Virus record (IMG/VR): IMGVR_UViG_3300030098_002480
Location: 1-46,581 of that record
Direction: 5' to 3' (one strand)
DNA length: 46,581 nucleotides
Origin: a virus
Shown: positions 12,979 through 46,486 of the stretch, one piece after another
Numbering within the stretch: position 1 is the first letter of the stretch
How the letters are laid out: every line of letters begins with the position of its first letter
Program-made: the position numbers and the translations under genes
Notes under the pieces: generated by a model
Databases searched by the model: none
What the model was told of the DNA's origin: nothing
Seen by the model: the letters and a program-made list of their open reading frames with translations, nothing else

Positions 12979-13127
12979 TCACTCTTTTCGCCTTGGTATT
13001 CTATGTCAAAGAAAGGCGTGTCTACTTCCAAGGAACCTGGCAAAGACTTACAGCCGCTTGCCATCACGACAATAAAGACCAACGCTCCTATGAAAATTCC
13101 TAGTGTTATTTTATCAGTTCTACTCAT
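12975..13127 (-). CDS. 50-residue putative lipoprotein
   Basis: It starts at 13127 inside the end of the MscS-like gene and ends in ATGA with the next gene. Residues 8-20 (TLGIFIGALVFIV) form a hydrophobic core, then VMASGC at 21-26, a possible lipobox with an acceptor Cys at position 26, and an acidic 24-residue tail. It could be a second outer-membrane lipoprotein or an alternative o-spanin. The -3 residue is Ala, a weaker lipobox, so lipidation is uncertain. Confidence 0.5.
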   Translation of the reverse strand: MSRTDKITLGIFIGALVFIVVMASGCKSLPGSLEVDTPFFDIEYQGEKSE

Positions 13128-29235: not shown

Positions 29236-29250
29236 AACCAACTCGCCTAT

Positions 29251-29266
29251 AGCAACTTTGATGCCA
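29251..29266 (-). promoter_or_regulatory. Sigma-54-like -24/-12 promoter for the virion unit
   Basis: The minus strand reads TGGCATCAAAGTTGCT, with GG-N10-GC spacing exactly as in sigma-54 promoters (consensus TGGCACG-N4-TTGCW). The -12 half TTGCT is perfect, the -24 half differs at two places. It points to the 1041-residue gene and the whole structural arm. The AACAGTT palindrome lies just upstream. Confidence 0.65.
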
Positions 29267-29273
29267 TCCAACC

Positions 29274-29302
29274 TAACAGTTAAAGCACCTTGGTAACTGT
29301 TA
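29274..29302. promoter_or_regulatory. Palindromic AACAGTT operator/enhancer element
   Basis: Perfect 9-bp inverted repeat TAACAGTTA - 11 nt - TAACTGTTA. The minus strand reads TAACAGTTACCAAGGTGC, almost the same as TAACAGTTAAAGGTGC at 36658-36673 near the other sigma-54-like promoter. It is likely bound by a dimeric regulator. Confidence 0.6.
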
Positions 29303-29661: not shown

Positions 29662-29691
29662 TTGACAACCTAGGCCAGAAAATGCTAGATT
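29662..29691 (+). promoter_or_regulatory. Sigma-70-type promoter of the single-gene unit
   Basis: TTGACA (29662-29667), 18-nt spacer, TAGATT (29686-29691) with TGC before the -10 (extended type). Predicted start near 29698, just before the first rightward gene. Confidence 0.65.
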
Positions 29692-29733
29692 TGCTGCACG
29701 TGCTAAATGCACGTTTTAACTACTAAAAACATA

Positions 29734-30192
29734 ATGAGTACAAAATACATGACACATGTGGTCGAGTTTGCGGCCGAATTCACTATTGAAGATAACAGAC
29801 TCGGCAACGATGCTATACGCTACACCGGTAGCGTGGCAGATGCTGAGGCATTTATCACGGCTCAGACTGAGCGCCCCGGCGAGGGAGATCAGTCTAGCTA
29901 TGAAAAGGTGTTGCTGGAGATTCTCACCGCCAACTTTAACAGTAAGGTGAATGACCTACCGGCGGAAGAAAACAGCGAAGCCTTGCTAAAGCGCCTTAAC
30001 GGTTGGCACAAGCGCCCCGAAAAGGCCGCCACAAGCGCCGAGAATACCAGAAACTCGGCGCACTACAACGAAACCCAAAATCTTGCCGCCGCTCACTCTG
30101 AAGCTATCGCGAAGTATGGCGAAGAGTCTGAGGAGGCCAAAAAGACAGCAGCGGCCCTTGTCGCTTACAACCTGTCCAAACTCGGAGTCTAA
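29734..30192 (+). CDS. Unknown 152-residue protein with its own promoter and terminator
   Basis: The frame opens at 29707; MSTKYMTHVVEFAAEF at 29734 is preferred because the predicted transcript starts near 29698, but neither start has a clear Shine-Dalgarno. No motif is recognised. The protein is polar and helical, with an acidic middle and a C-terminal Ala/Glu helix (AIAKYGEESEEAKKTAAALVAYNL). The gene is richer in G+C and uses GCC, CGC and GGC more than the genes to its right. With a sigma-70 promoter before it and a strong terminator behind it, it is an independent unit, like a moron or an immediate-early host-takeover gene. Confidence 0.7.
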   Translation: MSTKYMTHVVEFAAEFTIEDNRLGNDAIRYTGSVADAEAFITAQTERPGEGDQSSYEKVLLEILTANFNSKVNDLPAEENSEALLKRLNGWHKRPEKAATSAENTRNSAHYNETQNLAAAHSEAIAKYGEESEEAKKTAAALVAYNLSKLGV

Positions 30193-30218
30193 GCCTCCCC
30201 CGACATACAACAAGCAAG

Positions 30219-30244
30219 CCGTCCCTTTTTGGGACGGTTTTTTT
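30219..30244 (+). terminator. Rho-independent terminator
   Basis: CCGTCCC, TTTTT loop, GGGACGG, then seven T. This is a textbook intrinsic terminator 27 bp after the stop of the single-gene unit. The following 150 bp (30245-30393) is C-rich and holds no gene that I can see. Confidence 0.92.
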
Positions 30245-30393
30245 CTTCCCTCTACCAATTACACTTTTACCCCTTTTCTATAATCTCGTATCCCCCGATC
30301 TACAACCCCCGCAACTTATAGACTACACCCCTTTTAATAAGTAAAGTAACAATCCCCAACGGTTAGACCACACAAATAACCCGTAGAATATGC

Positions 30394-30421
30394 TTGTTTA
30401 TTACGTAGAGTATGGTATAAT
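30394..30421 (+). promoter_or_regulatory. Early sigma-70 promoter
   Basis: TTGTTT (30394-30399), 16-nt spacer, perfect TATAAT (30416-30421) with TGG directly before it (extended -10). The transcript would start about 20 bp before the first early gene and its AGAGAAAGAAAG ribosome site. Confidence 0.8.
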
Positions 30422-30449
30422 TGGCGGTTGCTAGAGAAAGAAAGTTAAA

Positions 30450-30935
30450 ATGAACCTAGACTATCTATTAAATGACACAAAGACCACAAAAGTTTGGTGC
30501 TTACTGAAGCTTGCCAAGCCTACGTGCAACCCGATGTACGACACGTACTCCCGGCACGACTCGGTAGAGATTACTCTAGCTGAGGCCGTGCGCGTAGCAG
30601 ACGCTCAACTTCCAGATGTCGTAGTTGAGTATCAAGGCGAGGAGTACACTAAGACTTGGTACGATAAGCCTATGCCGAAACTTAGCGTAGGTAAAGCACG
30701 CCTTTGGTGTAAGCAAGCGTGGATTGCTAGCCGACAACGCCGAAGTCTTGAACAAGACAAGATTGCAAAGCGTACCGCAAAGATCGAGCTGGTCATAGAC
30801 TACTTTGTCCAAAAGCTAGAGCGAGACCGGCAAAAGGTTAGACTAGAGCTACTGTGTGAGATGGACAGGACAACTCAGCAAGCTACGATAGACGCAATCT
30901 ATCCTATAGCCCAGAAAGCCTTAGCCCACAAGTAA
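30450..30935 (+). CDS. Unknown early protein (161 residues)
   Basis: First gene of the early unit, behind an extended -10 promoter and an AGAGAAAGAAAG ribosome site. The N-terminal half is mixed (KVWCLLKLAKPTCNPMYDTY), the centre basic (VGKARLWCKQAWIASRQRRSLEQDKI) and the C-terminal half a long charged helix. No catalytic motif is seen. Position suggests an immediate-early regulator or host-takeover protein, but nothing in the sequence proves that. Confidence 0.7.
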   Translation: MNLDYLLNDTKTTKVWCLLKLAKPTCNPMYDTYSRHDSVEITLAEAVRVADAQLPDVVVEYQGEEYTKTWYDKPMPKLSVGKARLWCKQAWIASRQRRSLEQDKIAKRTAKIELVIDYFVQKLERDRQKVRLELLCEMDRTTQQATIDAIYPIAQKALAHK

Positions 30936-30980
30936 CCAAAGATTTAATCCAAGGCTAGTAACTTTGGACTAACCAAGAAA

Positions 30981-32528
30981 ATGAAAGTACAGAAACCAGA
31001 CAAAGACTATATGCTAGATTGCACAGAGCATATAGTCCAAGCGGCTATTGAAACGATAGTCGAGAATGCTGGAGCGCGTAGTATGCCGTTCCAGATAAAG
31101 GCTGCGACAAGTGCAGCCATCAAGCTACAGCAGAAGCAAGGTGTTCTGCTCCAAGCTCACGCCGGTCTAGGGAAAACCTACATGGTACTCCCCGCAATCA
31201 AGTACCTACTCGACAACAACTTACTAGAGAAGAAAAGTAATTGGCCTATGCCAATCTTGTGGGTTACTCCAGCAGCAGTCATACCCCAAACTCTAGAGGT
31301 TATCAACCAGTTTAGGCTAACTCCCCACATATTTCCTATGTCTTACGCTGGTCTACGAGGTAAGATAGGCGAACAAGTTTACTGGACTAAGCACAAGCAT
31401 CCGGTACACAATACGTTCGCATACAACTGGAACCCACACGCTTTGCCGTCTCTGGTAGTCTTTGATGAGTGCCAAGGTCTCAAGAACGAGACCGCTTCCC
31501 AGACACAGATCGCTTGGTCTATCCCACAGGGAGTCAAACGTATCTTTATCTCTGCCACTCCCTACCAGAAAGTCAGCGAGTCACGTAGCGTAGTCCAAGG
31601 TGTAGGTATGAACTACGGCCAAGAACAGGTTACGACAGACACGGCCCCGCAACTACTCCGAGACATAGCTCGCTGGGGTAGCCCAAACAAACTATGCCAA
31701 GCCCAAATGGGTAGACTACGCGACTCCATGAAACCTTACGCTGTCTACGTACCAAAAGTACGCTACAAGCACGTAACACACACGCGCTGTCGTCTCATAG
31801 AGTTTGAGAGCGACGAAGAGAAGGCACAATATGATGGCTTCTACGAAGCGTTCCTCGCCAAGTGTCGTAAGTACGACCGTAACACTAACTTCGGTTGGAA
31901 CGAGATGCTCGTAGCCATGCAGAAGTTCCGAGAGGGAGCCGAACTTACTCGCGCCAAGCGTATGGCCAAGCGTGCGATAAGCACTATCGAGCGGGGCCGA
32001 CAGACTATCGTAGTCTGCAACTTCGTTGAACCTATGCGGGAAGTATACAAGTCTCTGGTAGACCTCGGCCTTCCCAAGTCCAGGATTACGCACATCGTTG
32101 GCGGACAATCCCAAAGTACAAGGGAACACCAACGGCAACAGTTCCAGAAAGGCGACGCGGATGTTATGCTATTCACCATGCGGTCAGGTGGAGTAGGTAT
32201 CAGCTTACACCACGACAACGAGAAGGCTAGGCCAAGACACATAATCATACCTCCAACATGGTCAGCCATAGATTTAGTCCAAGCACTAGGTCGAGGCCAC
32301 CGTATAACTTCCATCTCTGACACAACTCAGGATGTTATATGGTACAAGAACACCATAGAAGAAAAGGTATGCGCCAGAGTGGAGGCTAAGCTAGGTTGCA
32401 TCAACGCTTCAGTAGGTGCGAAAGAGAATTGGGTTAACGTATTCACCAACGGTACAGTACAAAAAGACATAGCTACCAAAGATGAATATACCGAGAACGA
32501 AGAAGAAAACCTTACAGTAGAACAATGA
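30981..32528 (+). CDS. SNF2-like superfamily 2 DNA helicase/translocase
   Basis: A 515-residue protein with the two RecA-like lobes. Lobe 1: Walker A AHAGLGKTY (about 59-67), LWVTPAAVI (motif Ia), DECQ (162-165, motif II) and SATP (191-194, motif III). Lobe 2: a motif V region (MRSGGVGISLHHDN) and QALGRGHRI (motif VI). DECQ and the GVGISL/LGRGHR pair match compact phage SNF2-type helicases. It probably moves along double-stranded DNA in replication or recombination. It is near the start of the early unit and couples to the next gene through ATGA. Confidence 0.85.
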   Translation: MKVQKPDKDYMLDCTEHIVQAAIETIVENAGARSMPFQIKAATSAAIKLQQKQGVLLQAHAGLGKTYMVLPAIKYLLDNNLLEKKSNWPMPILWVTPAAVIPQTLEVINQFRLTPHIFPMSYAGLRGKIGEQVYWTKHKHPVHNTFAYNWNPHALPSLVVFDECQGLKNETASQTQIAWSIPQGVKRIFISATPYQKVSESRSVVQGVGMNYGQEQVTTDTAPQLLRDIARWGSPNKLCQAQMGRLRDSMKPYAVYVPKVRYKHVTHTRCRLIEFESDEEKAQYDGFYEAFLAKCRKYDRNTNFGWNEMLVAMQKFREGAELTRAKRMAKRAISTIERGRQTIVVCNFVEPMREVYKSLVDLGLPKSRITHIVGGQSQSTREHQRQQFQKGDADVMLFTMRSGGVGISLHHDNEKARPRHIIIPPTWSAIDLVQALGRGHRITSISDTTQDVIWYKNTIEEKVCARVEAKLGCINASVGAKENWVNVFTNGTVQKDIATKDEYTENEEENLTVEQ

Positions 32529-32791
32529 AAAACCTATCACGCGAAACAAGAATAACAAGACTGTGCGAAAGGCTACGCGGAGAGCGTTCGCCAACTAGAA
32601 TCGGCACTATAACCAAAGGCTCCCTTGAGATACAGATTAACAGGGGAGATAAGCTAAACTACACACGCTTGGCGTTTATCGTAGATCGCTGGGACGACCT
32701 ATCCTGGCAAGATAAAACATGGCGGATTAAGTTTGCTCAGTTTATGAACTACGAAGGAGCTTTACCTCTAGGTTGGAGAGTAGAACAATGA
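32525..32791 (+). CDS. Unknown small protein (88 residues)
   Basis: Starts in ATGA overlap with the helicase stop and ends in ATGA overlap with the next gene. A basic N-terminal half (ETRITRLCERLRGERSPTRIG) is followed by LEIQINRGDKLNYTRLAFIVDRWDDLSWQD. The fold is unknown. Possibly a helicase accessory protein given the coupling. Confidence 0.6.
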   Translation: MKNLSRETRITRLCERLRGERSPTRIGTITKGSLEIQINRGDKLNYTRLAFIVDRWDDLSWQDKTWRIKFAQFMNYEGALPLGWRVEQ

Positions 32792-32931
32792 AAAAACGTA
32801 GACTTCGAGACCTTAACAAAGAACTAAGCAGAACAGGTACACCTTTAGGCTTAGGAAACCAACAACGTGCAGCCAACACTAACAAAGGCAAGTCCACTAA
32901 CAGACAGAAACCTAGGAGACGTAAGAAATGA
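32788..32931 (+). CDS. 47-residue basic protein with NKGKxTNRQKP tail
   Basis: ATGA overlaps at both ends. About a third of residues are Lys or Arg. The C-terminal NKGKSTNRQKPRRRKK matches the end of the 45-residue protein at 39035-39172 (NKGKATNRQKPKKRKR), so the two are paralogues at that end. Likely binds nucleic acid; no family recognised. Confidence 0.65.
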   Translation: MKKRRLRDLNKELSRTGTPLGLGNQQRAANTNKGKSTNRQKPRRRKK

Positions 32932-33083
32932 GCCGCAAGTATACAAACCTACTTATCGAAATGGTCGAAGATGGTAGGATAGACAAAGACCAACTTATCA
33001 TAGCCTTCGCCAAGTACATGAGCGAGGACGAGGTAAAGGACATGATGCACCTAAACGAAATAACTACAGACGATGAAGAATAA
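32928..33083 (+). CDS. 51-residue acidic helical protein
   Basis: Begins in the stop of the basic gene (ATGA). MSRKYTNLLIEMVEDGRIDK, then FAKYMSEDEVKDMM: a helical protein of the kind frequent among small phage proteins, with a SEDEVKDM stretch. Function unknown. Confidence 0.65.
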   Translation: MSRKYTNLLIEMVEDGRIDKDQLIIAFAKYMSEDEVKDMMHLNEITTDDEE

Positions 33084-33195
33084 AACATACATAAACTTAA
33101 TGTACTCTATAACAGCCATACTCCATTGGACTATCCTCGGTACTCTAGCATGGGTAACAGGCATAGCCCTCGGCTACTTACTATTCTACCCATGA
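33073..33195 (+). CDS. 40-residue single-span membrane protein
   Basis: Overlaps the previous gene by 11 nt and the next by 4 (ATGA). One hydrophobic helix (ILHWTILGTLAWVTGIALGYLLF) covers most of the protein, with a basic N-terminus, so it is probably anchored with that end inside. An early one-span protein could act in superinfection control or membrane takeover. Function unknown. Confidence 0.55.
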   Translation: MKNKTYINLMYSITAILHWTILGTLAWVTGIALGYLLFYP

Positions 33196-33551
33196 ACTCA
33201 CAGGATAAAGAATACGTAAACCTACCACACACCTACGTCTTTACCGTAGACACCGAGACAGCGTTCAGGAATATCGGGGAATGTATCCCAACGATTCTTG
33301 AAGCGTACGAAAAAGCCGGAGACATTAAAGGCTACAGCTTTGGCAACTGGGTAGAAGTCCAAGCTCCCTCTTATGTCTACGGAAAAAGTCTAGCTTGGAC
33401 AGATCGCAAGCTACTCAACAAGACTACTTATTGGCTAGTCTTTAAGACATCTGAATATGTAGATGTCATGCGTCCAATACAAGCTCTATGTATGTACCTA
33501 GATGCAAAGAAAAACAACACAGAAGAAAACACAGAAGAAAATGAGTTCTAA
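33192..33551 (+). CDS. Unknown early protein (119 residues)
   Basis: The start at 33192 (MNSQDKEYVNLPHTYVFTV) is chosen over 33126 because it forms ATGA with the upstream stop. The protein is mixed alpha/beta, with a Trp/Tyr-rich centre (GNWVEVQAPSYVYGKSLAWTDRK) and an Asn/Glu-rich tail that overlaps the next start by 11 nt. No motif recognised. Confidence 0.6.
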   Translation: MNSQDKEYVNLPHTYVFTVDTETAFRNIGECIPTILEAYEKAGDIKGYSFGNWVEVQAPSYVYGKSLAWTDRKLLNKTTYWLVFKTSEYVDVMRPIQALCMYLDAKKNNTEENTEENEF

Positions 33552-34593
33552 TAATGACTGGATAGATGGACTAACAGAACAAGTCCTAGGAAAAATAGAC
33601 GACAAGTACACAGAGAAGTTTACTGCTCTGGAAAAGGCAATCTCTGAGACTACTCAGCAGAATGTAAAGCTAGAAATCAAGCGTGTCATAGCGCACAACA
33701 GGGAACACTACTCTACGTTGGAGGGTCAGCACTACCAAGTGAAGCCCCTACTCGAAACGCTGGGAGCCGGTTTGTCTGCTATGATTATCGGGCCTACGGG
33801 TAGCGGCAAGACTAGGGTAACAAAGCCTATCGCCGTAGCTTTAGGTTGCAAGCACTATGCTATACGTCAGGTTAACAAACAAACAGGGACGCACGACCTT
33901 ATTGGATTCAATAACAGCGGCGGACAGTACGTACCTGGTGTGTTGACTGACGTAATTAAACACGGTGGCCTAGCTGTTATAGATGAGATGGACAACGGGA
34001 ATAGTAACGTACTCATGATTATCAAGGGTATCTGTAGCGGACATATCAATATGCCGTACGGCCCGCAGGATGTACACCCTGACTGTCGGCTTATGTGTAC
34101 CGCAAACACGTGGGGACTTGGGCCAGACCGCGAGTACGTAGGACGCAACGCGCTAGACGTAGCCCTGCTAAACGAGTTCGTCTGTATAGAATGGCCGTAC
34201 GATACGGATGCAGAGAAAGCTTGGGCTAAGGAAACATATATCCGAGTAGACAAACCTCACATTACTCCCGTACAGTTTAATAAATTCTGCGACAGGTTCC
34301 AGAAGATGAGGGAGTACGCAGAGAGTAACAAGATACGAGTCATCTTCAGTACACGTAACCTACACCAGTGCATTACCTTACAGGCTATGTCTGGTTGGGA
34401 TGCAGTAGATTGCCTAGATGCCACAGTCTTTCGCTCTGTCAAAGGTGACGCTCGGCGTAAGCTACTCGACGTATACATGGAGAAGCTCAAGCCTATAAAG
34501 ACTCAGTACAAAAGCCCGCACAAACACGTAGTTAAAAAGCCTGATGTACCGGAAGAAGTAAAGGATATTGTAGACGAAGAAGTACCGTTTTGA
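33541..34593 (+). CDS. CobS/MoxR-like AAA+ ATPase
   Basis: The start MSSNNDWIDG at 33541 gives 350 residues; the longer frame from 33502 lies inside the upstream gene. Walker A GPTGSGKT (84-91), a helix-2 insert (DLIGFNNSGGQYVPGVLTDVIKHGG), Walker B LAVIDEMD (144-151), sensor 1 CTANTW (N189) and a basic C-terminal tail. This is the AAA_5/CobS-MoxR pattern. Such ATPases act with von Willebrand factor A-like partners in metal insertion or protein remodelling; a vWA-like partner candidate is encoded two genes on. The phage role is unknown. Confidence 0.8.
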   Translation: MSSNNDWIDGLTEQVLGKIDDKYTEKFTALEKAISETTQQNVKLEIKRVIAHNREHYSTLEGQHYQVKPLLETLGAGLSAMIIGPTGSGKTRVTKPIAVALGCKHYAIRQVNKQTGTHDLIGFNNSGGQYVPGVLTDVIKHGGLAVIDEMDNGNSNVLMIIKGICSGHINMPYGPQDVHPDCRLMCTANTWGLGPDREYVGRNALDVALLNEFVCIEWPYDTDAEKAWAKETYIRVDKPHITPVQFNKFCDRFQKMREYAESNKIRVIFSTRNLHQCITLQAMSGWDAVDCLDATVFRSVKGDARRKLLDVYMEKLKPIKTQYKSPHKHVVKKPDVPEEVKDIVDEEVPF

Positions 34594-34601
34594 AAAGAGC
34601 T

Positions 34602-34886
34602 ATGAAGATAACACTAGACTACAAACTAAACCCCGACAAGGACTACACGTTAAAGGATATTAACCTATACCTCTATGCTTACTGCGAAGAAAGGAATCCA
34701 GAGGTAGCCCGTAAATTATTTGACCCACTAATGACCTTGGTAGGCTACAGTATGGACTTGGTTATGAACTACGATGTAAACAAGATACTCGTAGAGTTGC
34801 CAAAGTTTGGGCGAGAGATACAGGAACTACGAGAAGAACGACAACGCCGTTTAAGCCATGAAGATAATAAAGAAAACAATCTATAG
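34602..34886 (+). CDS. Unknown small helical protein (94 residues)
   Basis: ATG at 34602 (MKITLDYKLNPDKDY) is preferred to a TTG at 34590 inside the ATPase stop. Helical second half (LMTLVGYSMDLVMNYDVNKILVELPKF) and an Arg/Glu-rich tail overlapping the next gene by 29 nt. Its place between the AAA+ ATPase and the vWA-like candidate suggests the three work together. Confidence 0.55.
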   Translation: MKITLDYKLNPDKDYTLKDINLYLYAYCEERNPEVARKLFDPLMTLVGYSMDLVMNYDVNKILVELPKFGREIQELREERQRRLSHEDNKENNL

Positions 34887-35742
34887 TTGGGACGAGTTCC
34901 GCTCTGTCCTAGACAATGAACCAAAGCTAGACGAGGACAACTCAGACTTGAACGTCTGGTCTTCAAAGGAAACTACAGAGACAGACGACTGGTACGGTAC
35001 GAAGTCTTGGCTTGAAGCCGTGTTCATACTGGACGCAGGTGGTTGGGGTATACCAAAGCTGGAGCGCACAAAGATAGACGACAAAATAACAGACTCTATC
35101 GCTCCACTCGAGGACTACCTGACAGAGTACGTGCCTACTGTAGCTGGAGGTACAATAAACATAGAGGCTGCCATAGCAGACTGCTCTCCCGAACACTTCA
35201 TGGAGGAAGAGGAAACAGAGACAGTCATAACCAAAGGCAAAAGACTCCTGACAATCTACGTTAACTGCTGGAACCATTGTGGTATACCGGAGGAATGCTA
35301 CTTCCACAGGGGAGCCTTGATATACAAAGCTATAGACCACCTAGAAACCTTGGGCTACGGCTGCGAAGTTATCGCCACGTTCCCCTGTCGCAGCGGCCAA
35401 GAAGCCCACGTAACCTACGTTAAGATCAAGGACTTCCAAGAGATGATGGACATAGACAAGTTGTGCATAACCATGTGCGCTACGTTTATGATGCGTCGAT
35501 TCCTGTTCCACCTCCAAGAACTAGAACCGCCAGATATACGCAAGAAGTTTGGCTACTTCGCCAATGGTGGCTACGGCACGCAGATAAAGATGGGTACTCT
35601 ATCAGATGAGGACATTGCTATCCAACAAGACAGCTCCGAGCTTATCTTCTGGTACGATGTTTCTGGACTAGAGCGAGTCAAGGACATAGAGGAGGCGTTC
35701 ATCAAGTTAGTGGAGACCAAGTTCAATGAAGTCACAGACTGA
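34858..35742 (+). CDS. Possible vWA-like partner of the CobS-like ATPase (294 residues)
   Basis: An acidic N-terminal half (DEDNSDLNVWSSKETTETDDWYG) leads to a Rossmann-like core: LLTIYVNCWNHCGI, then GALIYKAIDHLETLGYGCEVIATF. The strand-helix-strand order, with a helix before GYGCEVIATF, recalls vWA domains, but the metal-site DxSxS is replaced by NCWNHCG, so any vWA would be degenerate. Operon order ATPase, small gene, this gene resembles MoxR/CobS-CobT sets. Tentative. It overlaps the sigma-54 activator gene by 17 nt. Confidence 0.5.
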   Translation: MKIIKKTIYSWDEFRSVLDNEPKLDEDNSDLNVWSSKETTETDDWYGTKSWLEAVFILDAGGWGIPKLERTKIDDKITDSIAPLEDYLTEYVPTVAGGTINIEAAIADCSPEHFMEEEETETVITKGKRLLTIYVNCWNHCGIPEECYFHRGALIYKAIDHLETLGYGCEVIATFPCRSGQEAHVTYVKIKDFQEMMDIDKLCITMCATFMMRRFLFHLQELEPPDIRKKFGYFANGGYGTQIKMGTLSDEDIAIQQDSSELIFWYDVSGLERVKDIEEAFIKLVETKFNEVTD

Positions 35743-36508
35743 CGCAGAGCGACTACGGGAAAAGGCAGAGAAGCTACTCAAGGCGCACACTCTACCGAGA
35801 GACTTCGGCTTTATTACGCAAGACGCTGACACCCTGCGGCTTCTAGCCTTGGCAGATAAGCTTGCGCCTCTAGATGATACGGTGCTGATTACCGGAGAGA
35901 GTGGCACAGGTAAAGACCTTGTTGCACGTAGGCTACACGGCAGACGTAGCGGTAGGTTTCTATCGTTGAACCTTTCAGCAATACCGGAGAGTATGATACA
36001 GAGCGAACTCTTCGGCCATGTTAAGGGAGCCTACACGGGTGCGGTATCTAACCGTATGGGTCTGCTGGTCGCAGCCTCCAGAGGTACGATGTTTCTGGAT
36101 GAGATAGGAGACATATCCCCTGCACTACAGGTCTTACTTCTTCGTGTCATAGAGACACGTAAGTTTCGTAGGATAGGTGAGAACGAGGACACAGAATTCA
36201 AGGGCCGATTTATCTTTGCCTCGAACAAAGTAAACTCCGGTTTCCGTGAAGACCTCTACCATAGAATCGCCACCTATAGACTAGACCTAAAGCCGTTGAG
36301 AGATAGGCCCGATGACATCCCCCTTATAGTGGACTCCCTTGGCTTAGGTTTTACACCAGAGGAAATCAAAGACCTCTGGCAGCTAATCCGTACCGCCAAG
36401 AAATATCAAGAGGAACTACTCTCAGGCAACGTGCGGGAACTTATTCGCCTCGCCAAACAGTACAAAGTTCTAGGCCGAGACAACCTAGACCTCTACTCTA
36501 GGCTCTAA
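35726..36508 (+). CDS. Sigma-54 activator AAA+ domain protein (bacterial enhancer-binding protein type)
   Basis: 260 residues, last gene of the early unit. Walker A GESGTGKD (57-64); SELFGHVKGAYTGA (93-106) contains the GAFTGA loop that touches sigma-54, here with Tyr for Phe; Walker B TMFLDEIGD (121-129); sensor I FIFASN (162-167); FREDLYHRI (173-181) with the two arginine-finger positions; DRPDDIPLI; sensor II GNVREL (234-239). This is a complete Sigma54_activat domain. Missing are an N-terminal sensor and a C-terminal Fis-like helix-turn-helix, so it may act from solution or be recruited by another protein. A sigma-54-like promoter lies 82 bp after its stop. Predicted to let host sigma-54 polymerase start the replication and virion units. 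Confidence 0.9.
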   Translation: MKSQTDAERLREKAEKLLKAHTLPRDFGFITQDADTLRLLALADKLAPLDDTVLITGESGTGKDLVARRLHGRRSGRFLSLNLSAIPESMIQSELFGHVKGAYTGAVSNRMGLLVAASRGTMFLDEIGDISPALQVLLLRVIETRKFRRIGENEDTEFKGRFIFASNKVNSGFREDLYHRIATYRLDLKPLRDRPDDIPLIVDSLGLGFTPEEIKDLWQLIRTAKKYQEELLSGNVRELIRLAKQYKVLGRDNLDLYSRL

Positions 36509-36574
36509 GAAAATTCCTTACAGGAAACTGGAATATAGGCTACGAAAAAACTTTCAACTTTTAAGATTATTTTT

Positions 36575-36665
36575 CAACAGTTGTAACAGTTGGCATGATT
36601 CCTGCTCTATATAGATAGTTAAAAAATTAACTGCTAACAGTTAAATGAATTTTGCACTAACAGTT
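36575..36665. repeat. Four AACAGTT repeats around the replication-unit promoter
   Basis: (C/T)AACAGTT occurs at 36575, 36584, 36635 and 36658. The copy at 36635 is part of an inverted repeat TTAACTG-CTAA-CAGTTAA (36627-36644). The last copy continues as AAGGTGC, as does the copy at the virion-unit promoter. Likely regulator-binding sites. Confidence 0.65.
36590..36606 (+). promoter_or_regulatory. Sigma-54-like -24/-12 promoter for the replication unit
   Basis: TTGGCATGATTCCTGCT has the invariant GG (36592-36593) and GC (36604-36605) separated by exactly 10 nt and agrees with TTGGCACG-N4-TTGCW at all but two consensus positions. Predicted start near 36617, about 80 nt before the first gene of the unit. 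Confidence 0.75.
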
Positions 36666-36696
36666 AAAGGTGCATCAGTAAAAGAAAGTAAATACT

Positions 36697-37116
36697 ATGT
36701 TAAACATAGAAACAAACTACACGATGGAGCATTTCCAGTCTGGCGATTGGGAAGGCTATAAGTTCGCAGTACCAGAATTCAAGACTACAGCAGATGTAGT
36801 CAGCAGGTACGGCGAGGAAAAAACACTAGCCTTGTTGAACCAACAGGTTAGCGCACGTATCCGGTCTACGGTAAAGAACTCGTTGAAGCCTAACGGCAAA
36901 ACAACTGAGGAACTCAAGGCTGAGTTAGACCAGAAGCATCCAGATCAGGTAATCTACACCAAGGAGGATGCTGACAAGTGGACACCGGAGACTACAACAG
37001 AAACTCCTAACAAGCTTTTCAATAAAGCCAAGGCAGCATTCGCCGCTGGTGATATTGAACAGGGTAAGGCGTTAATCAAACGCATGGAGGAACTGATGCC
37101 TTCTAGCGAAGGCTAA
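36697..37116 (+). CDS. Unknown protein (139 residues), first gene of the replication unit
   Basis: A strong AAAGAAAG ribosome site precedes the ATG. N-terminal part mixed (MEHFQSGDWEGYKFAVPEFK), centre helical and basic (LLNQQVSARIRSTVKNSLKPNGK), then an acidic region and a C-terminal helical hairpin (FNKAKAAFAAGDIEQGKALIKRMEEL). The leader with the sigma-54-like promoter and the RNA structure downstream suggest high and separate expression. No motif is recognised. A DNA-binding or transcription role would fit. Confidence 0.7.
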   Translation: MLNIETNYTMEHFQSGDWEGYKFAVPEFKTTADVVSRYGEEKTLALLNQQVSARIRSTVKNSLKPNGKTTEELKAELDQKHPDQVIYTKEDADKWTPETTTETPNKLFNKAKAAFAAGDIEQGKALIKRMEELMPSSEG

Positions 37117-37123
37117 GAAAACA

Positions 37124-37237
37124 AAGAGTAGCGTAGCATGGTGTGTAGGGAGAACCTACAACGGGATACCGGTAACAAGGGTTTTTGTACTCCCCCTTGT
37201 TCAACTCTGTCGCCTATAGAAACACTACGCTACTCTT
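37124..37237 (+). ncRNA. Structured RNA element A (three-way junction)
   Basis: A perfect 13-bp closing stem (AAGAGTAGCGTAG, 37124-37136, with 37225-37237) encloses CATGGTG, a 6-bp hairpin (TGTAGG, GAGAA, CCTACA; 37144-37160) and an 8-bp hairpin (AACAAGGG/CCCTTGTT; 37174-37201, 12-nt loop), then GAAACA before the closing strand. Element B at 41982-42071 repeats this layout with a different closing stem. No T-run follows, so it is not a simple terminator. Candidate cis-regulatory RNA, processing site or small RNA. Confidence 0.75.
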
Positions 37238-37252
37238 AACTTTAATTTAACT

Positions 37253-37801
37253 ATGTCAGAAAAAACTTTAGAAGATCATTCAAACCTACTGCGTAGACTA
37301 CGCTCACGCCCGTCACCAGCACGTTCATCGTATAGCGCAAGTAGCACAGCCAAGGTAAAACCTGTACTGGACAGGCTACTCGACGGAAGAAACGACATAC
37401 TTGTTACATCGGAAGACACAGGCTACACGGTTAACACCCTGTATGTTAAGCTTGTTGACGGTCTCAAGTTCCTAGTGGATAACTCGGAAGAGTACGGTTC
37501 GGTCTATGCTGAACTACGTTCCCAGATTTCCATGCGGAAAACAGACACGGGTGTTCTTATTTATTTCAAGGACACCGTACGCAACTTGATTAAAGAGAAG
37601 GAACTCAAGTACGACTACGCAGACTCTAGCGTTTGGCGTGGTGAGCTACTTACTTGGTTGCAAACTGCACAAGACATGGAGACTTGGAAGCGGGATAACC
37701 TTGTACTCAAGGAGGAAGATTTGAGGTGGCTAGAGGAACAACAGAAAACCATAGACTTCGAGTTTGATACCGCACAGGACAGGCTCGCCGTAATACGATA
37801 G
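37253..37801 (+). CDS. Unknown protein (182 residues)
   Basis: Follows RNA element A. A Ser/Arg-rich start (RRLRSRPSPARSSYSASS) suggests a flexible tail, then a mixed alpha/beta body (TLYVKLVDGLKFLVDNSEEYGS, GVLIYFKDTVRNLIKEK) and a charged helical end. No catalytic motif. Placed before nuclease and recombination genes, it may be a DNA-metabolism accessory. Confidence 0.65.
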   Translation: MSEKTLEDHSNLLRRLRSRPSPARSSYSASSTAKVKPVLDRLLDGRNDILVTSEDTGYTVNTLYVKLVDGLKFLVDNSEEYGSVYAELRSQISMRKTDTGVLIYFKDTVRNLIKEKELKYDYADSSVWRGELLTWLQTAQDMETWKRDNLVLKEEDLRWLEEQQKTIDFEFDTAQDRLAVIR

Positions 37802-37804
37802 CCT

Positions 37805-37891
37805 ATGCCGCTTACAATTTTATCTGTAGCATCTTTATTCTTTACACTCTTGTTCCTTGCTTTATTTATCATAGACTTTTATGACGATTGA
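37805..37891 (+). CDS. 28-residue hydrophobic peptide
   Basis: MPLTILSVASLFFTLLFLAL then a short acidic end (FYDD). Begins 3 bp after the upstream stop and overlaps the next start by 11 nt. A single membrane helix. Small enough to be chance, but the tight packing favours a real gene. Confidence 0.4.
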   Translation: MPLTILSVASLFFTLLFLALFIIDFYDD

Positions 37892-38096
37892 GCAGCTACT
37901 AGATTGTACCGTAGAACAGTTGGAGGCTATGTCAGACGACGAGCTACTCCAGCATTTTGAAAAGTACCTTGCGCTAACAGAACCCAAGGTAGAATTGGCG
38001 AAGCCAAAGACTGCGCGAAAGAAGCGTGTTGTAAAGGAAAAGAAAACCCTGCTTGACAAAGCAGAAGAACTAAAAAGAACCTATGGAATTACTTAA
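37881..38096 (+). CDS. 71-residue protein with acidic helix and basic tail
   Basis: An acidic helical first half (IEQLLDCTVEQLEAMSDDELLQHF) is joined to a Lys/Arg-rich second half (KPKTARKKRVVKEKKTLLDKAEELKR). Such proteins are frequent near phage recombination genes. It overlaps the Cas4-like nuclease gene by 14 nt, suggesting a partner role. Function unknown. Confidence 0.65.
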   Translation: MTIEQLLDCTVEQLEAMSDDELLQHFEKYLALTEPKVELAKPKTARKKRVVKEKKTLLDKAEELKRTYGIT

Positions 38097-39015
38097 TTTA
38101 GAGAAAACACCGGAGGGCAAGTACATTGTAAAGATAGATGCGTCCCTTATTAAAGAGTCAGCTTGTGAACGTAGGCTATGGTATATGCTATTCCGTGGAC
38201 TACGAAAGCGTAACTCTAATCACAAGATGGAGTATGGTACTGCTGTACATAAAGCACTTGAATCCTTCTACGAGAACGGTGACAAGGATGCAGCAATCAA
38301 TAAAGCCATAGACCACTACGCAGATGTTCTCGTACCCGACAAAGACTTTCGAGACCTAGCGCACCTAGTCAACCTACTCAATCAATACTTCAGTATAGAC
38401 ACAGGACTTGAGGTAAAGAAAGACCCCGACCCTGTACTGGAGATGCGCTTCGCCTACCCGTACAAGCAGACACCCAAGTTGGACATACTCTTTTGCGGTA
38501 CGATAGACTTCGTTGGAACCTACTATGGCAGACCTGTTATTGTAGATCACAAATCCACAGCAGCGTACAACACCGCCGCTTACTTCGCCTCGTACAAGGT
38601 ATCACCGCAGCTTATGTTTTATAATCTTATCTGGAACACGTTGTTTCCTGATGAGTACATTGGCTGTATGATAAACGGAATCTTTCTTGCACGTTCTAAC
38701 AAGAACAAGTTCGAGCGCAGCGAGATATTTGAGTTTAGTAAAGACAGACTGGCGAAGTTCAAGGACTACGTTGATGATCTTGTAGACAGAATCATACTAA
38801 AATTTGACGACTACGTTGACAATGTTAACATAGTTGGCGAGCAGAAGGCAGAGGCAGAGAAGATTTTCTACAGTAACTTCTCCTCTTGTGAAACGAGGTT
38901 TGGTCTATGTTCTTTCGTGCCTCTCTGTACAGCAAATAGCGCACGGGATAGGGAATCAATAGTGAACATGGACTACACACGTAAAGTTTATGACCCGTTA
39001 CAATTTCAATTATGA
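38083..39015 (+). CDS. Cas4/RecB-like PD-(D/E)XK exonuclease with Fe-S cysteines
   Basis: 310 residues with MEYGTAVHKALESFY (His56), FCGTIDFVG (Asp142), PVIVDHKST (Asp155, Lys157) and later a Gln/Tyr motif (SPQLMFYNLIW), the Cas4-AddB exonuclease order. Four cysteines (C28, C269, C276, C282; spacing C-x6-C-x5-C at the end) match the 4Fe-4S site of that family. It probably resects DNA ends to supply single strands to the Sak4-like annealing ATPase downstream. There is no CRISPR array in the window. Confidence 0.88.
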   Translation: MELLNLEKTPEGKYIVKIDASLIKESACERRLWYMLFRGLRKRNSNHKMEYGTAVHKALESFYENGDKDAAINKAIDHYADVLVPDKDFRDLAHLVNLLNQYFSIDTGLEVKKDPDPVLEMRFAYPYKQTPKLDILFCGTIDFVGTYYGRPVIVDHKSTAAYNTAAYFASYKVSPQLMFYNLIWNTLFPDEYIGCMINGIFLARSNKNKFERSEIFEFSKDRLAKFKDYVDDLVDRIILKFDDYVDNVNIVGEQKAEAEKIFYSNFSSCETRFGLCSFVPLCTANSARDRESIVNMDYTRKVYDPLQFQL

Positions 39016-39038
39016 AAGCTAAGAAACATAAACGATGA
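39012..39038 (+). CDS. Possible 8-codon coupling peptide (MKAKKHKR)
   Basis: An ATG inside the nuclease stop (ATGA) opens an 8-codon frame that ends in ATGA with the next gene. It may carry ribosomes across the 20-nt gap to the 45-residue gene. Too short to prove as a gene. Confidence 0.3.
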   Translation: MKAKKHKR

Positions 39039-39172
39039 ACTACGAAAAAAAGTTTAGATCAATTGAGCAAATTGTGTTAAACAAAACAGGTTTACTAAGG
39101 ACAGATGGAAAACCTTTATCTAATAAAGGCAAAGCCACTAACAGGCAGAAACCAAAGAAGAGGAAAAGATGA
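39035..39172 (+). CDS. 45-residue basic protein with NKGKxTNRQKP tail
   Basis: The C-terminal NKGKATNRQKPKKRKR matches the end of the 47-residue early protein (32788-32931). The N-terminal parts differ (MNYEKKFRSIEQIVLNKTGL here). Both genes end in ATGA with the next gene. Probable nucleic-acid-binding tail. Confidence 0.65.
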   Translation: MNYEKKFRSIEQIVLNKTGLLRTDGKPLSNKGKATNRQKPKKRKR

Positions 39173-39351
39173 AAGCTATAACATCAATTAACGGTAATGT
39201 TGAGGTAGTTGAGCTACCGGACAACGCGAGGAACTGGACAAAGTTAGATAGCCCAAGCGAAGCGGAAAGCACTAGCGCCTCCAAGCGTCAGGATAGCTGG
39301 GAGAAAGCCCTTACCCCTCACGTAGTCAAAAGTAAAAAGTTTAAAACCTGA
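39169..39351 (+). CDS. Unknown 60-residue protein
   Basis: Starts in ATGA overlap. Beta-like start (MKAITSINGNVEVVELPDNARNW) then a polar, Ser-rich, probably disordered segment with a basic end (VKSKKFKT). No family recognised. Confidence 0.55.
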   Translation: MKAITSINGNVEVVELPDNARNWTKLDSPSEAESTSASKRQDSWEKALTPHVVKSKKFKT

Positions 39352-39357
39352 AGTAAG

Positions 39358-39642
39358 ATGGAAGACATACAACAGAAAACTAAAGACGCTAGGCTAGATG
39401 CCTACAAGGATGGCATGGAGAACTTTACCATGCTACGCTACACAGCAGCACTTGAATCGCTTAACAGTACCATTCAAGCTACGCTACAGGACAATGATAG
39501 AGTAGGCGCACTCACCGGCGACTGCGCTAGTCACACAGCGGCAATCCTAGCTGCGGCAGATATGCTTGGTAGCAAGCTTACAGCACTAGACAAGTCTATC
39601 CAGAACTTATCGTTGCTAGTGGGAAGGAGTCTAAGTAAATGA
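39358..39642 (+). CDS. Unknown helical protein (94 residues)
   Basis: A helical protein with an Ala/Leu-rich centre (TAAILAAADMLGSKLTALDKSIQNLSLLV). Its stop forms ATGA with the Nmad1-like gene, so it is co-translated with it. No motif is recognised. Confidence 0.6.
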   Translation: MEDIQQKTKDARLDAYKDGMENFTMLRYTAALESLNSTIQATLQDNDRVGALTGDCASHTAAILAAADMLGSKLTALDKSIQNLSLLVGRSLSK

Positions 39643-40019
39643 ACTCGACGTTACTCAAGAAGATAAAGTTAGACACGCTCGCAGGTAAGCGTGCGCTGTT
39701 TGTGGCAACCGACTGCGTTAGTCTACTGGATGCAAAGCAGAAGGACTACGGGCCAAGAAACATCAGCCGCTTCGGCACAAAAGGTCTTGCAGTACGTCTG
39801 TACGATAAGGTAGAACGTCTGGCGAACCTTCTCATTGATAGAGAATCTGCTCCAAACAACGAGTCTTTAGAGGACACGTTTAAGGACATAACCAACTACG
39901 GAATCATTGGTCAGCTACTCTTAAAAGAAGAGTGGCCAGCAGATGAGCCAGAAGAATTTGACACTTTCTACGGTGTCATTGAACCAGAAACTAAAGTAGA
40001 TATTAAAGAAAATGTATAA
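39639..40019 (+). CDS. Nmad1-like (DUF1599) protein
   Basis: 126 residues. AKQKDYGPRNISRFGTKGLAVRLYDKVERLANLL followed by NESLEDTFKDITNYGIIGQLL gives the DYGxxN ... G..G...R..DKxxRLxNL ... ES..DTxxDxxNY pattern of nucleotide modification-associated domain 1. In phages this family accompanies DNA base modification or nucleotide metabolism; its exact activity is unsettled. No modification enzyme partner was found in this window. It overlaps the Sak4-like gene by 8 nt. Confidence 0.7.
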   Translation: MNSTLLKKIKLDTLAGKRALFVATDCVSLLDAKQKDYGPRNISRFGTKGLAVRLYDKVERLANLLIDRESAPNNESLEDTFKDITNYGIIGQLLLKEEWPADEPEEFDTFYGVIEPETKVDIKENV

Positions 40020-40668
40020 ACCACTAATCGGCATTATAGGACAAAGCGGAACTGGCAAGAGTACGTCGTTGCGTAACCTAGACCCAAAGACAACTTACAT
40101 CCTAGACTTGGAACGCAAAGGCTTTCCTTTTCCCGGAGCTAATAAGTTCAACATAATTCCAGTAGATAACCCTAACGCATTCACGCGAGAGTTTGCCAAG
40201 GCACTCAAGGAGGACAACTGTGAAACCATTGTTATTGAATCCTTCACGAAGTACGTAGAGCAAGTAGCTACGCTGGCTAACACCAGCTTCAAGGGGTTTG
40301 ATATATGGGCTTTCATAGCTCGTACAATACGCTCAATGCTGGATAGTATAAAGAATGACAAGGCTACTGTTATATGTACAGGTATTGACGATATTGTAAA
40401 GATCCCACAAGTTACAGGCGGGGAAACTTCCAGCCGCAGGATTAAAGTACAAGGCAAGGTACATGAAGGTACAGTTGAGAAGGAGTTTCTCATAGTCTTG
40501 TTTACTGAAATTTGTAAGAACGAGAAGACGGAAGAGATAGAGTATTTCTTCCAGACCAACACGGACGGTGTTACTTCTGCCAAAACTCCGCTGGGTATGT
40601 TTAAGGAACGTCTGATACCCAATGACATTGCTGAAGTTTTGAAAGCTGTTGAAGAATACTACGAATAA
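40012..40668 (+). CDS. Sak4-like RecA-fold ATPase (single-strand annealing/recombination)
   Basis: 218 residues with Walker A GIIGQSGTGKST (about 6-17), the early strand TTYILDLERKGFPF, a Walker B-like TIVIESFTKY, a central ATVICTGIDD strand and a C-terminal segment typical of the AAA_24 family. This small RecA-core size without DNA-binding ends is that of phage Sak4 recombinases, which work with an SSB-like partner; an SSB-like protein is encoded at 41490. It probably directs annealing after resection by the Cas4-like nuclease. Confidence 0.82.
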   Translation: MYKPLIGIIGQSGTGKSTSLRNLDPKTTYILDLERKGFPFPGANKFNIIPVDNPNAFTREFAKALKEDNCETIVIESFTKYVEQVATLANTSFKGFDIWAFIARTIRSMLDSIKNDKATVICTGIDDIVKIPQVTGGETSSRRIKVQGKVHEGTVEKEFLIVLFTEICKNEKTEEIEYFFQTNTDGVTSAKTPLGMFKERLIPNDIAEVLKAVEEYYE

Positions 40669-40672
40669 TTTA

Positions 40673-40790
40673 TACTTGAGATATGGAATACGCATCTTCT
40701 AGACGTTGGACAACGAGTAGCTCTGGTCATTGGCTACTTGGCGTAAACCTTAACCTGCTGTTTGTTAGTGTGTCAGCGGGGTCTCAAGTA
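40673..40790 (+). ncRNA. Structured RNA element C (multi-branch)
   Basis: A 9-bp closing stem (TACTTGAGA 40673-40681 with TCTCAAGTA 40782-40790) encloses TATGGAA, a stem TACGC/GCGTA (40689-40693, 40741-40745) that itself holds two hairpins (CGTT/AACG, 40704-40715; AGTAGC/GCTACT, 40716-40738), and a hairpin CCTGCTG/CAGCGGG (40754-40780). GTTTTT follows the closing stem, so termination or attenuation before the 77-residue gene is possible. Related to A and B only in layout and an ATGG in the first junction. Confidence 0.6.
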
Positions 40791-40801
40791 GTTTTTAACC
40801 T

Positions 40802-41035
40802 ATGAAGAAACTAAAGTTAAAACTAGGACGGCTACTAGAGGTAGAGAACAAAGGTAAGCACAAGGCTGCCAACTCAACATACAGTCTTGTGTATCTTGAA
40901 GGTCTGTATAAACAAAGAGACGGAAGCCCAGCTCCCTACCTGTTTACCACTTCGCAACTTGCGGAAGCTAGAGATAGGGCGCAGAAGAACAAAGAGGACT
41001 GCGGTTCGCTGTCTCGGTGGTGGAAGTTTTGGTAA
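40802..41035 (+). CDS. Unknown 77-residue protein
   Basis: Directly after RNA element C. Basic start (MKKLKLKLGRLLEVENKGKH), then mixed sequence (STYSLVYLEGLYKQ, FTTSQLAEARDRAQKNKED) and a Trp-rich end (SRWWKFW). The central part resembles small phage proteins with a LFTxxQLxEARxRAxKN motif. Function unknown. Ends 1 bp before the SNase start. Confidence 0.65.
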   Translation: MKKLKLKLGRLLEVENKGKHKAANSTYSLVYLEGLYKQRDGSPAPYLFTTSQLAEARDRAQKNKEDCGSLSRWWKFW

Positions 41036-41036
41036 G

Positions 41037-41405
41037 ATGAAAACCAAGAACAAGCTTTACCACTACAGCGCAGAAGTTACGCGGGTAGTTGATGGTGATA
41101 CTGTTGATGCCTTCGTAGACTTGGGGTTTGATATGCACTCCAAACAACGTGTTCGACTGTACGGTATAAACACACCTGAGTGTAGAACACGGGACAAGAT
41201 AGAGAAGGTAGCTGGACTAGCTGCCAAAGCGCGTCTACAAGAGATGCTTAAAGAAAACAAAAACAAGTGTGTCATTAAGACTAGCTTGGATAAGAAGGGT
41301 AAGTATGGGCGAGTTCTCGGCGTACTCTACGTTGATGATGTAAACCTAAACGAAACTCTAGTGGAAGAGGGCCATGCTGATAAATACTTCGGAGGCTCTC
41401 GTTAA
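41037..41405 (+). CDS. Thermonuclease (SNase) family nuclease
   Basis: The start MKTKNKLYHY at 41037 gives 122 residues; the upstream extension is the shadow of the 77-residue gene. VVDGDTVDAFVDLGF (Asp21), RVRLYGINTPE (Arg40, Glu48) and GKYGRVLGVLYV (Arg92) reproduce the calcium site and the two catalytic arginines of staphylococcal nuclease. There is no signal peptide, so it should act in the cytoplasm, on host DNA or in phage DNA processing. Confidence 0.88.
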   Translation: MKTKNKLYHYSAEVTRVVDGDTVDAFVDLGFDMHSKQRVRLYGINTPECRTRDKIEKVAGLAAKARLQEMLKENKNKCVIKTSLDKKGKYGRVLGVLYVDDVNLNETLVEEGHADKYFGGSR

Positions 41406-41408
41406 GAA

Positions 41409-41484
41409 TTTTCCTACGAGTGTAGGAGAAATGTGTACGTTACACCTAATAAACTAAACATAAAACATAAAACATAAAACATAA
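41409..41484 (+). promoter_or_regulatory. Leader with two hairpins and CATAAAA repeats
   Basis: An 84-bp gap before the SSB-like gene. Hairpin 1: TTTCCTAC/GTAGGAGAA around 41409-41430 (one G-T pair). Hairpin 2: GTGTA-CGT-TACAC at 41433-41445. About four tandem copies of the 7-mer CATAAAA follow (41459-41484), an unstructured A-rich stretch leading into the ATG in place of a Shine-Dalgarno. This design could protect the mRNA and favour translation. Confidence 0.55.
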
Positions 41485-41489
41485 TACTC

Positions 41490-41966
41490 ATGGCTACAAT
41501 AAGTCTAAAAGATATTACGGAAAGTTCTGGTAGGCCATACCTACCGAACGGTACATACACGCTGCGTGTCGTAGAGGCAGAGCGTAAGGTTAGCGCAAAG
41601 GGCAACGATATGGTTGCCGTTGTCGCTGAAGTCGTTGAACCTACAGAAGTTAACGGGCCTAACGGTTTCGTTGAGATCGGTGGCGTTCAGGTACGTGACT
41701 ATCCTCTGATTCCTTCTCGGAGTCTCAAGGAGTATCACAAAATCTTCGATCTTCCAGATGAGTTTGAGTTGGAAGACTACGACGAGATTGCTGAAGGTTT
41801 GAAGGGTAAAGCATTTAAGGCTGTACTCTACACAAAGCAAGAGGCTAGAATGGACGAAATCAGCGGCGATCCCATGATCGACCCGATTACGAATCAACCG
41901 TTGGCTACCAATAGGTACAACGTGGAGCGCAGGTTAGAAGCTGCACCAGACCACGACTTAGGTTGA
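41490..41966 (+). CDS. Putative single-stranded DNA-binding protein (DUF669-like)
   Basis: 158 residues. The first 75 are beta-rich (GTYTLRVVEAERKVSAKGNDMVAVVAEVVE), the strand pattern of the DUF669 OB-fold family with the central K-x-G-N-D-M turn. The C-terminal half holds GKAFKAVLYTKQEA and an acidic end (PDHDLG). It lies between Sak4/SNase and polymerase genes in the replication unit. The likely role is ssDNA coating and recruitment of the annealing ATPase. The leader structure and downstream RNA element B flank it. Confidence 0.7.
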   Translation: MATISLKDITESSGRPYLPNGTYTLRVVEAERKVSAKGNDMVAVVAEVVEPTEVNGPNGFVEIGGVQVRDYPLIPSRSLKEYHKIFDLPDEFELEDYDEIAEGLKGKAFKAVLYTKQEARMDEISGDPMIDPITNQPLATNRYNVERRLEAAPDHDLG

Positions 41967-41981
41967 TCTAGTCTCTAACAT

Positions 41982-42071
41982 GGGAGTTTGTGGCATGGTG
42001 CGTAGAGAGACTCTACGACTGGTTGCGGGTATATTGGTTCCCCGTTCCATCTGAAACAAACACAAACTCCT
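41982..42071 (+). ncRNA. Structured RNA element B (three-way junction)
   Basis: A 10-bp perfect closing stem (GGAGTTTGTG 41983-41992 with CACAAACTCC 42061-42070, plus a G-T pair) encloses GCATGGTG, a 7-bp hairpin (CGTAGAG, AGA, CTCTACG; 42001-42017), a short hairpin (CGGG/CCCG; 42026-42044, 11-nt loop) and GAAACA before the closing strand. Junction CATGGTG, the GTAG(A/G)G-type hairpin, the GGG...CCC hairpin and GAAACA are shared with element A, while closing stems differ in sequence but keep pairing. Confidence 0.75.
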
Positions 42072-42086
42072 CTTTAAGAAAATATT

Positions 42087-42239
42087 ATGTCTAACACAAA
42101 AACAGATGCGCGAGTTAAAGAGTACAAGCCTGTACTTATTCCAGCTCCGCTGCACCGAAAAATAAAAAGGCTCGCAAGGCGTGAAGGTTTACGCCTTAAC
42201 GACATTGTTCCGCAACTACTAAAGACCGCCCTGAAATAA
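42087..42239 (+). CDS. 50-residue ribbon-helix-helix-like protein
   Basis: KEYKPVLIPAPLHRKIKRLARREGLRLNDIVPQLLKTAL reads as one beta strand followed by two helices with a GLRLND turn, like RHH (CopG/Arc-type) regulators that bind DNA as dimers. It follows RNA element B and shares a base with the next start (TAATG). It is the best phage-encoded candidate to bind the AACAGTT palindromes, but that link is inference. Confidence 0.6.
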   Translation: MSNTKTDARVKEYKPVLIPAPLHRKIKRLARREGLRLNDIVPQLLKTALK

Positions 42240-42514
42240 TGACTGTACTAGATACATTAAGACAAGAACTGGACAGCTTATCTCCTGACAAGAAGCAGGA
42301 TACAGAAGCTGCGGCTCATAGACTAGCTGGTGTAATGTCTACTATCTTGGTTACAGGCTACAAGTCAGGGTTTCAAGATGCGACAGCAATGTTAGGGTCT
42401 TATGTTAACGATCACTTCTCTGGTAACAAAGACTTTGATAAAGAGTCTGCGGAGATTGCTCTAAAGAAGCTAGGCGAAATAGACTTCCCTTCGGATGAGG
42501 CACAAACCGAGTGA
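42239..42514 (+). CDS. Unknown 91-residue helical protein
   Basis: Helical (LDTLRQELDSLSPDKKQDTE, AAHRLAGVMSTILVTGYKSGFQDA) with an acidic end. Overlaps the polymerase gene start by 20 nt. Perhaps a polymerase accessory; no motif recognised. Confidence 0.6.
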   Translation: MTVLDTLRQELDSLSPDKKQDTEAAAHRLAGVMSTILVTGYKSGFQDATAMLGSYVNDHFSGNKDFDKESAEIALKKLGEIDFPSDEAQTE

Positions 42515-46087: not shown

Positions 46088-46293
46088 TGACAACATGGCA
46101 TGAAGAACAAAAGCAAACGATGAAAGAATCTTTAGAGCAACTAATAATAAATCTTACCGAGTACAGGAAAAAGCTAAACAACAAAGACGAGCTACGCATA
46201 ATCAACAAGGCAATTGAACAAGCGTGCGAAGTTCAGAATAAAAAAGTAGAAACTCTAGAAGAAGCAGTTAAGGAGTCTGACGATGCTAGTTGA
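46087..46293 (+). CDS. 68-residue coiled-coil protein
   Basis: ATG shares a base with the helicase stop (TAATG). A single charged helix throughout (ESLEQLIINLTEYRKKLNNKD, then EQACEVQNKKVETLEEAVKES). Probably a coiled-coil dimer. Function unknown. Overlaps the next gene by 11 nt. Confidence 0.6.
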   Translation: MTTWHEEQKQTMKESLEQLIINLTEYRKKLNNKDELRIINKAIEQACEVQNKKVETLEEAVKESDDAS

Positions 46294-46486
46294 TGGAGTA
46301 GATTGTATAGGTAGTTTGGAACGCGCAGGAGCGTTCATTGTTAACTCTGAGTATATGGAGGAGGAGATACTAGATAATACCGATGAGCAATCCCACAAGT
46401 TCAAAACATGGAAACAGCTTATTGAGTATCTAGAAAAAGAGTGTGGTTCTGGCGAAGTCTACGAGCTGATTACCATACGAGAATAG
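46283..46486 (+). CDS. 67-residue acidic protein, last gene of the rightward arm
   Basis: A beta start (LVDGVDCIGSLERAGAFIV) then acidic helices (SEYMEEEILDNTDEQ, TWKQLIEYLEKECG). The stop TAG at 46484-46486 directly abuts the stop of the leftward nuclease gene (CTA), so the arms end in TAGCTA without a spacer. No terminator hairpin separates them. Function unknown. Confidence 0.6.
   Translation: MLVDGVDCIGSLERAGAFIVNSEYMEEEILDNTDEQSHKFKTWKQLIEYLEKECGSGEVYELITIRE

Follow-up and report, generated by a model that had tools for sequence, protein, structure and literature searches.

We propose that the phage whose 46.6-kb virus record was analysed here (the window, i.e., the whole of this stretch of DNA) makes a constitutively active AAA+ sigma-54 activator (bEBP) that switches on middle and late promoters read by the host polymerase with host sigma-54. 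On sequence evidence alone, without expression data, we regard this reading as very likely. On a broader scale, it is likely that in a widespread family of tailed phages, essentially uncultured, middle and late transcription form a sigma-54 regulon governed by an HTH-less bEBP that the phages themselves encode, with as many as 11 sites per genome and, in one branch of the family, a complete sigma-54 beside the activator. A sequence-only reading of the window had described the order early unit, activator, activator-dependent promoter as a built-in time switch; the comparisons reported below support it, transcription and rpoN dependence remaining inferred.

Organisation of the window

Early and replication genes are carried by the plus strand and structural genes by the minus strand. 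The transcription units, their predicted promoters and the activator gene are as follows:

7–29123, minus strand: late unit, with the terminase large subunit and virion proteins
29251–29267, minus strand: second sigma-54-like promoter, ATGGCATCAAAGTTGCT, ahead of the late structural block, with transcription expected to begin near 29240
29662–29691, plus strand: sigma-70-like promoter before the early unit, TTGACA-N18-TAGATT with TG (weak evidence)
29707–36508, plus strand: early unit, with hypothetical genes, an SF2 helicase, an AAA_5/CobS-like ATPase, a DUF7192 protein and, last, the activator
35726–36508, plus strand: sigma-54 activator (bEBP) of 260 aa, AAA+ core only, with a GAYTGA loop and without receiver or HTH
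36590–36606, plus strand: predicted sigma-54 (-24/-12) promoter at the head of the middle (replication) unit, with transcription expected to begin near 36617
36697–46486, plus strand: middle unit, with a PD-(D/E)XK nuclease, Sak4, DUF669, DNA polymerase A and a primase-like DUF3987 protein

The early sigma-70-like site is a consensus match only, such sites being no more numerous than in shuffles; it is mostly retained in two close relatives. The window yielded neither a sigma-70 region 4 nor a sigma-54 gene, in line with the earlier statement that it lacks a sigma factor gene, and none of the proteins scanned was recognised as an RNA polymerase (the direct search with PF00940 was run without a positive control). 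The sequence-only reading had further placed the sigma-54 site at the head of the whole replication unit: this holds for the replication genes at 36697–46486, but the SF2 helicase sits in the early unit.

Two other features deserve mention. The CobS/MoxR-like AAA_5 ATPase and DUF7192 protein (33502–35742) form an early pair adjoining the activator; the pair is kept in clade A, with no counterpart seen in the larger relatives examined. On the late strand, a small protein (13120–13509, minus strand) matches a mechanosensitive-channel beta-domain (E 8e-5).

The last early gene encodes a sigma-54 activator reduced to its AAA+ core

The product of the last early gene had been read as a full Sigma54_activat AAA+ domain with GAYTGA, and is confirmed as a sigma-54 activator cut down to its AAA+ core; that it opens promoters is an inference. 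Residues 30–186 match PF00158 (Sigma54_activat; E 8e-48, 163 bits), the GAYTGA motif of the L1 loop occupies residues 101–106, and the motifs GESGTGK, FLDEIG, FREDLYHR and GNVREL were found, so that Walker A and B, the arginine finger and sensor II are all accounted for. The chain stops just past the lid subdomain, 26 aa beyond NVR, with no receiver and no C-terminal HTH, and the C-terminal tail is similarly short in all phage relatives. An AF2 model built with 47 sequences (a model with 7 sequences was poor) reached a pLDDT of 91 and matches the AAA+ domains of NtrC4, FleQ, FlrC and PspF, the best PDB matches being NtrC4, FleQ and FlrC.

The L1 loop reads GSYSGA, GSYTGA, GSFTGA or GAFTGA in variants among phage relatives. 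The GAYTGA, GSFTGA and GAFSGA variants have been reported to be still activation-competent (PMC6615313); GSYSGA, which is common in clade A, is three positions off GAFTGA and is not among the variants named in that paper. The missing HTH does not exclude the protein from the bEBPs, because FlgR, CtcC and FleT also lack it (PMC3162934). There is precedent for activity of an AAA+ core on its own, DctD250 needing no enhancer to activate sigma-54 promoters (PMC3844500).

A sigma-54 site behind the activator gene is conserved among relatives

The TTGGCATG-N4-CTGCT that had been noted soon after the activator stop, with exact GG-N10-GC spacing, is confirmed: the sequence TTGGCATG-ATTC-CTGCT is present 81 bases on (complete site, TTGGCATGATTCCTGCT). 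With 13.2 of a possible 13.9, this site has the top sigma-54 score of all positions on both strands. As one of 20 Markov-simulated genomes contained a site scoring equally high, the match within a single genome is merely suggestive and comparative evidence is needed. A further exact site at 28887–28902 is antisense, inside a 1041-aa late gene, and was taken as chance.

An alignment search for relatives yielded 80 loci, and the short bEBPs were clustered at 75% identity into 32 clusters. The strict pattern TGGCAYR-N5-TGCW was sought on the same strand within 285 bp downstream of the activator stop. Such a site follows the short-bEBP gene in 26 of the 32 clusters, as compared to 16 of 841 other long-ORF ends (Fisher p 3e-33) and to none of 11 full-length (HTH-bearing) bEBP genes; in the controls with the opposite strand or with the reversed pattern, none of the 32 clusters scored. 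Among the clusters without a site, four (L043, L047, L062 and L064) have none near the short-bEBP gene, though sites occur elsewhere in their records, a fifth (L060) has its site 438 bp from the gene, outside the limit, and the sixth (L085) is a member of the sigma-54-encoding group described below. The activator tree contains a well-supported branch (99/98) that has the full-length proteins to one side of it.

The -24/-12 bases and their spacing are kept downstream of activators at 99%, about 65% and about 40–45% protein identity, whereas the distance from stop to site varies freely in relatives (2–263 bp), as does the surrounding intergenic DNA. When the sites of 15 clade-A phages were anchored, TTGGCA, G and TTCCTGCT were invariant, the surrounding 120 bases were mostly variable, and no invariant block in 140 bp was longer than that within the site. 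Conservation of the -24/-12 bases in relatives that keep the protein was the check set beforehand, and it was passed. At the level of sequence comparison, conservation in relatives thus settles what the single-genome match could not.

At four loci (L005, L023, L030 and L035), the activator-promoter spacer carries, just behind the activator stop, short repeats that resemble NVAIGYN (YadA-like) units. Units of this type also lie within the gene for the 1781-aa Peptidase_S74 protein of the window (13749–19094), and the spacer repeats may be what is left of tail-protein repeats, or may have been their donors.

A second conserved site heads the late block

The site at 29251–29267, which the sequence-only reading had not mentioned, ties for second place in the genome-wide scan and differs from the strict pattern at one position. 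Seven phages, the window phage being one of them, have its TGGCA and TGCT without variation at this place, and through this second conserved site the switch probably governs the late block as well. Across 40 records that carry these activators, 174 strict sites were counted against 7 for the reversed-pattern control, genomes of about 52 kb having up to 11 sigma-54 sites each. In four larger relatives (G027, G033, G017 and G032), a site stands about 170–200 bp ahead of the homologue of the window gene 19525–20931, a capsid-region gene by position only. These latter sites recall the structural-region promoters of phage YuA.

Proposed mechanism

Sigma-54 polymerase cannot initiate without an ATP-driven activator. 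A phage that brings one therefore gains a tight on/off switch and the use of the host polymerase, with no sigma gene. In the sequence of events that we propose, the early genes would be read from the sigma-70-type promoter, with the activator as the product of the last of them, while sigma-54 polymerase, in closed complex, would wait at the -24/-12 sites. Having no DNA-binding domain, the activator may assemble in solution, like truncated bEBPs; its GAYTGA loop would then contact region I of sigma-54, and ATP hydrolysis would open the promoter. As sigma-54 promoters need an activator for opening, the middle (replication) and late (structural) genes are proposed to be silent until the activator is made. 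Whereas the protein family, its motifs, the sites, their conservation and their linkage to the activator gene are read directly, the sigma-54 dependence, the activation from solution and the timing are inferred.

TAACAGTT elements and other readings of the locus

The window has five exact copies of TAACAGTT, all of which flank the two sigma-54 sites:

29274–29281, plus strand: copy just upstream of the late sigma-54 site
29295–29302, minus strand: inverted partner of the preceding copy, likewise upstream of the late site
36584–36591, plus strand: copy that overlaps the middle sigma-54 site at its upstream edge
36635–36642, plus strand: copy in the predicted middle-transcript leader, present in the window and its nearest relatives but not in the wider clade
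36658–36665, plus strand: copy in the predicted middle-transcript leader, retained across clade A

About three copies are expected in a random genome of this composition, so that the signal is their placement and not their count; the layout is repeated in relatives whose activator is about 65% identical. On the strength of this placement, TAACAGTT itself could be the true switch, an operator or enhancer at which another DNA-binding protein of phage or host acts and on which the bEBP depends. We consider this improbable: a k-mer comparison found no comparable shared element upstream of the sites in four larger relatives, which nevertheless retain activator and sites. No HTH partner protein for TAACAGTT was recognised, and such a protein could be an added layer on the bEBP switch and not an alternative to it.

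It is less probable still that the activator mainly reprogrammes host sigma-54 regulons, the phage promoters being secondary. HTH-less bEBP cores are promiscuous (PMC3844500), as such a role would allow, but the sites cluster directly behind the activator gene and recur across phage genomes far over the control. That 36590–36606 is an ordinary sigma-70 promoter or a chance likeness is very hard to maintain: although TTGGCA-N18-GATAGT also passes the sigma-70 scan (the total of such sites equalling that in shuffles) and the simulations allow for an equally good sigma-54 match by chance, conservation extends to TGCT and GG-N10-GC but not to the -10-like GATAGT, and the same motif stands behind activators about 40–45% identical. 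Finally, a replication or motor ATPase unrelated to sigma-54, for which only weak PHROG matches to clamp loader and CobS-like ATPases speak, is scarcely credible in view of the Sigma54_activat score, the L1-loop motif, the bEBP-like fold and the linkage to sigma-54 sites.

One branch of the family has its own sigma-54 gene

One relative, G038 (IMGVR_UViG_3300015360_000006), encodes a short activator (bEBP) and additionally a sigma-54 (L117:2730–4196). The latter has 488 aa with activator-interaction (AID), core-binding (CBD) and DNA-binding (DBD) domains, all three being confident Pfam matches, and its gene lies between the Sak4 and DUF669 genes. No canonical sigma-54 site was found in G038. 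Two fragments, L121 and L122, have sigma-54 genes 95% identical to this copy; the other family records searched have none. The sigma-54 gene raised the possibility that G038 is a bacterial contig, which was excluded by terminase, portal-position, polymerase and primase homology and by matching ends. Judged by these homologies, G038 is a phage of the same broad family.

Relation to known systems

According to the sequence-only reading, no characterised lytic phage is known to commandeer host sigma-54 polymerase in this way. This was too broad in one respect, since Pseudomonas phage YuA (P. aeruginosa) is reported to depend strictly on host sigma-54 (PMC5053324); it stands with regard to the activator, as YuA has no bEBP. 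In the 50 kb read of the YuA record (Yuavirus; NC_010116), three high-activity -24/-12 promoters are annotated in the structural region, and the genome has no PF00158 activator; nor does the strict pattern occur in it exactly. The window phage, whose dependence on host sigma-54 is inferred from its sites and their conservation, differs in encoding an activator; YuA presumably relies on that of its host. The use of host sigma-54 by a phage was therefore already known, whereas a phage-borne activator with linked promoters is apparently undescribed. No description of a phage-encoded bEBP was found in the open-licence literature searched and none was found among the isolate phages searched: a DNA-level search of annotated phages gave no match, and the matches from protein searches of isolate phages were bEBPs of full-length bacterial type or contigs without annotation, all of them spanning less than 80% of the query, with one distant unannotated match in MT121960.

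PspF/NtrC-type bEBPs share the AAA+ core, L1 loop, arginine finger and sensor II with the phage protein; however, they carry a C-terminal HTH and bind enhancers, whereas the phage protein stops behind the lid. Like the phage protein, the sigma-54 activators Rhodobacter FleT, which has neither of the flanking domains (PMC3162934), Helicobacter FlgR and Chlamydia CtcC do without a DNA-binding domain, but these are bacterial genes in cellular regulons and none is a phage stage switch adjoining its own promoter. DctD250 likewise has no HTH but is engineered. In phage T4, MotA and AsiA are phage products that retarget the host polymerase to later promoters. A sigma-like protein of phiEco32/7-11 likewise redirects host polymerase (PMC8948821). 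Both cases belong to a sigma-70 setting, while the window phage instead contributes the ATPase that sigma-54 needs. In Pectobacterium phage Q19, gp2 is a putative sigma-54 factor with an HHpred E of only 0.67 (PMC7693777), as against the three confident sigma-54 Pfam domains of G038; that paper describes no activator or promoters.

Significance and host

If the proposed switch is correct, it would represent a further route of phage takeover and account for stage timing in a large phage group, and it would provide natural minimal bEBPs for work on mechanism. The hosts would have to possess sigma-54, with the G038 branch perhaps excepted. The best terminase relatives among isolates are those of Akkermansia phages (30–32%). 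The sole match in genome collections is contig L116, in a Methanoregulaceae (archaeal) MAG without sigma-54. This contig carries terminase, portal-position and capsid-region homologues and is probably a mis-binned phage.
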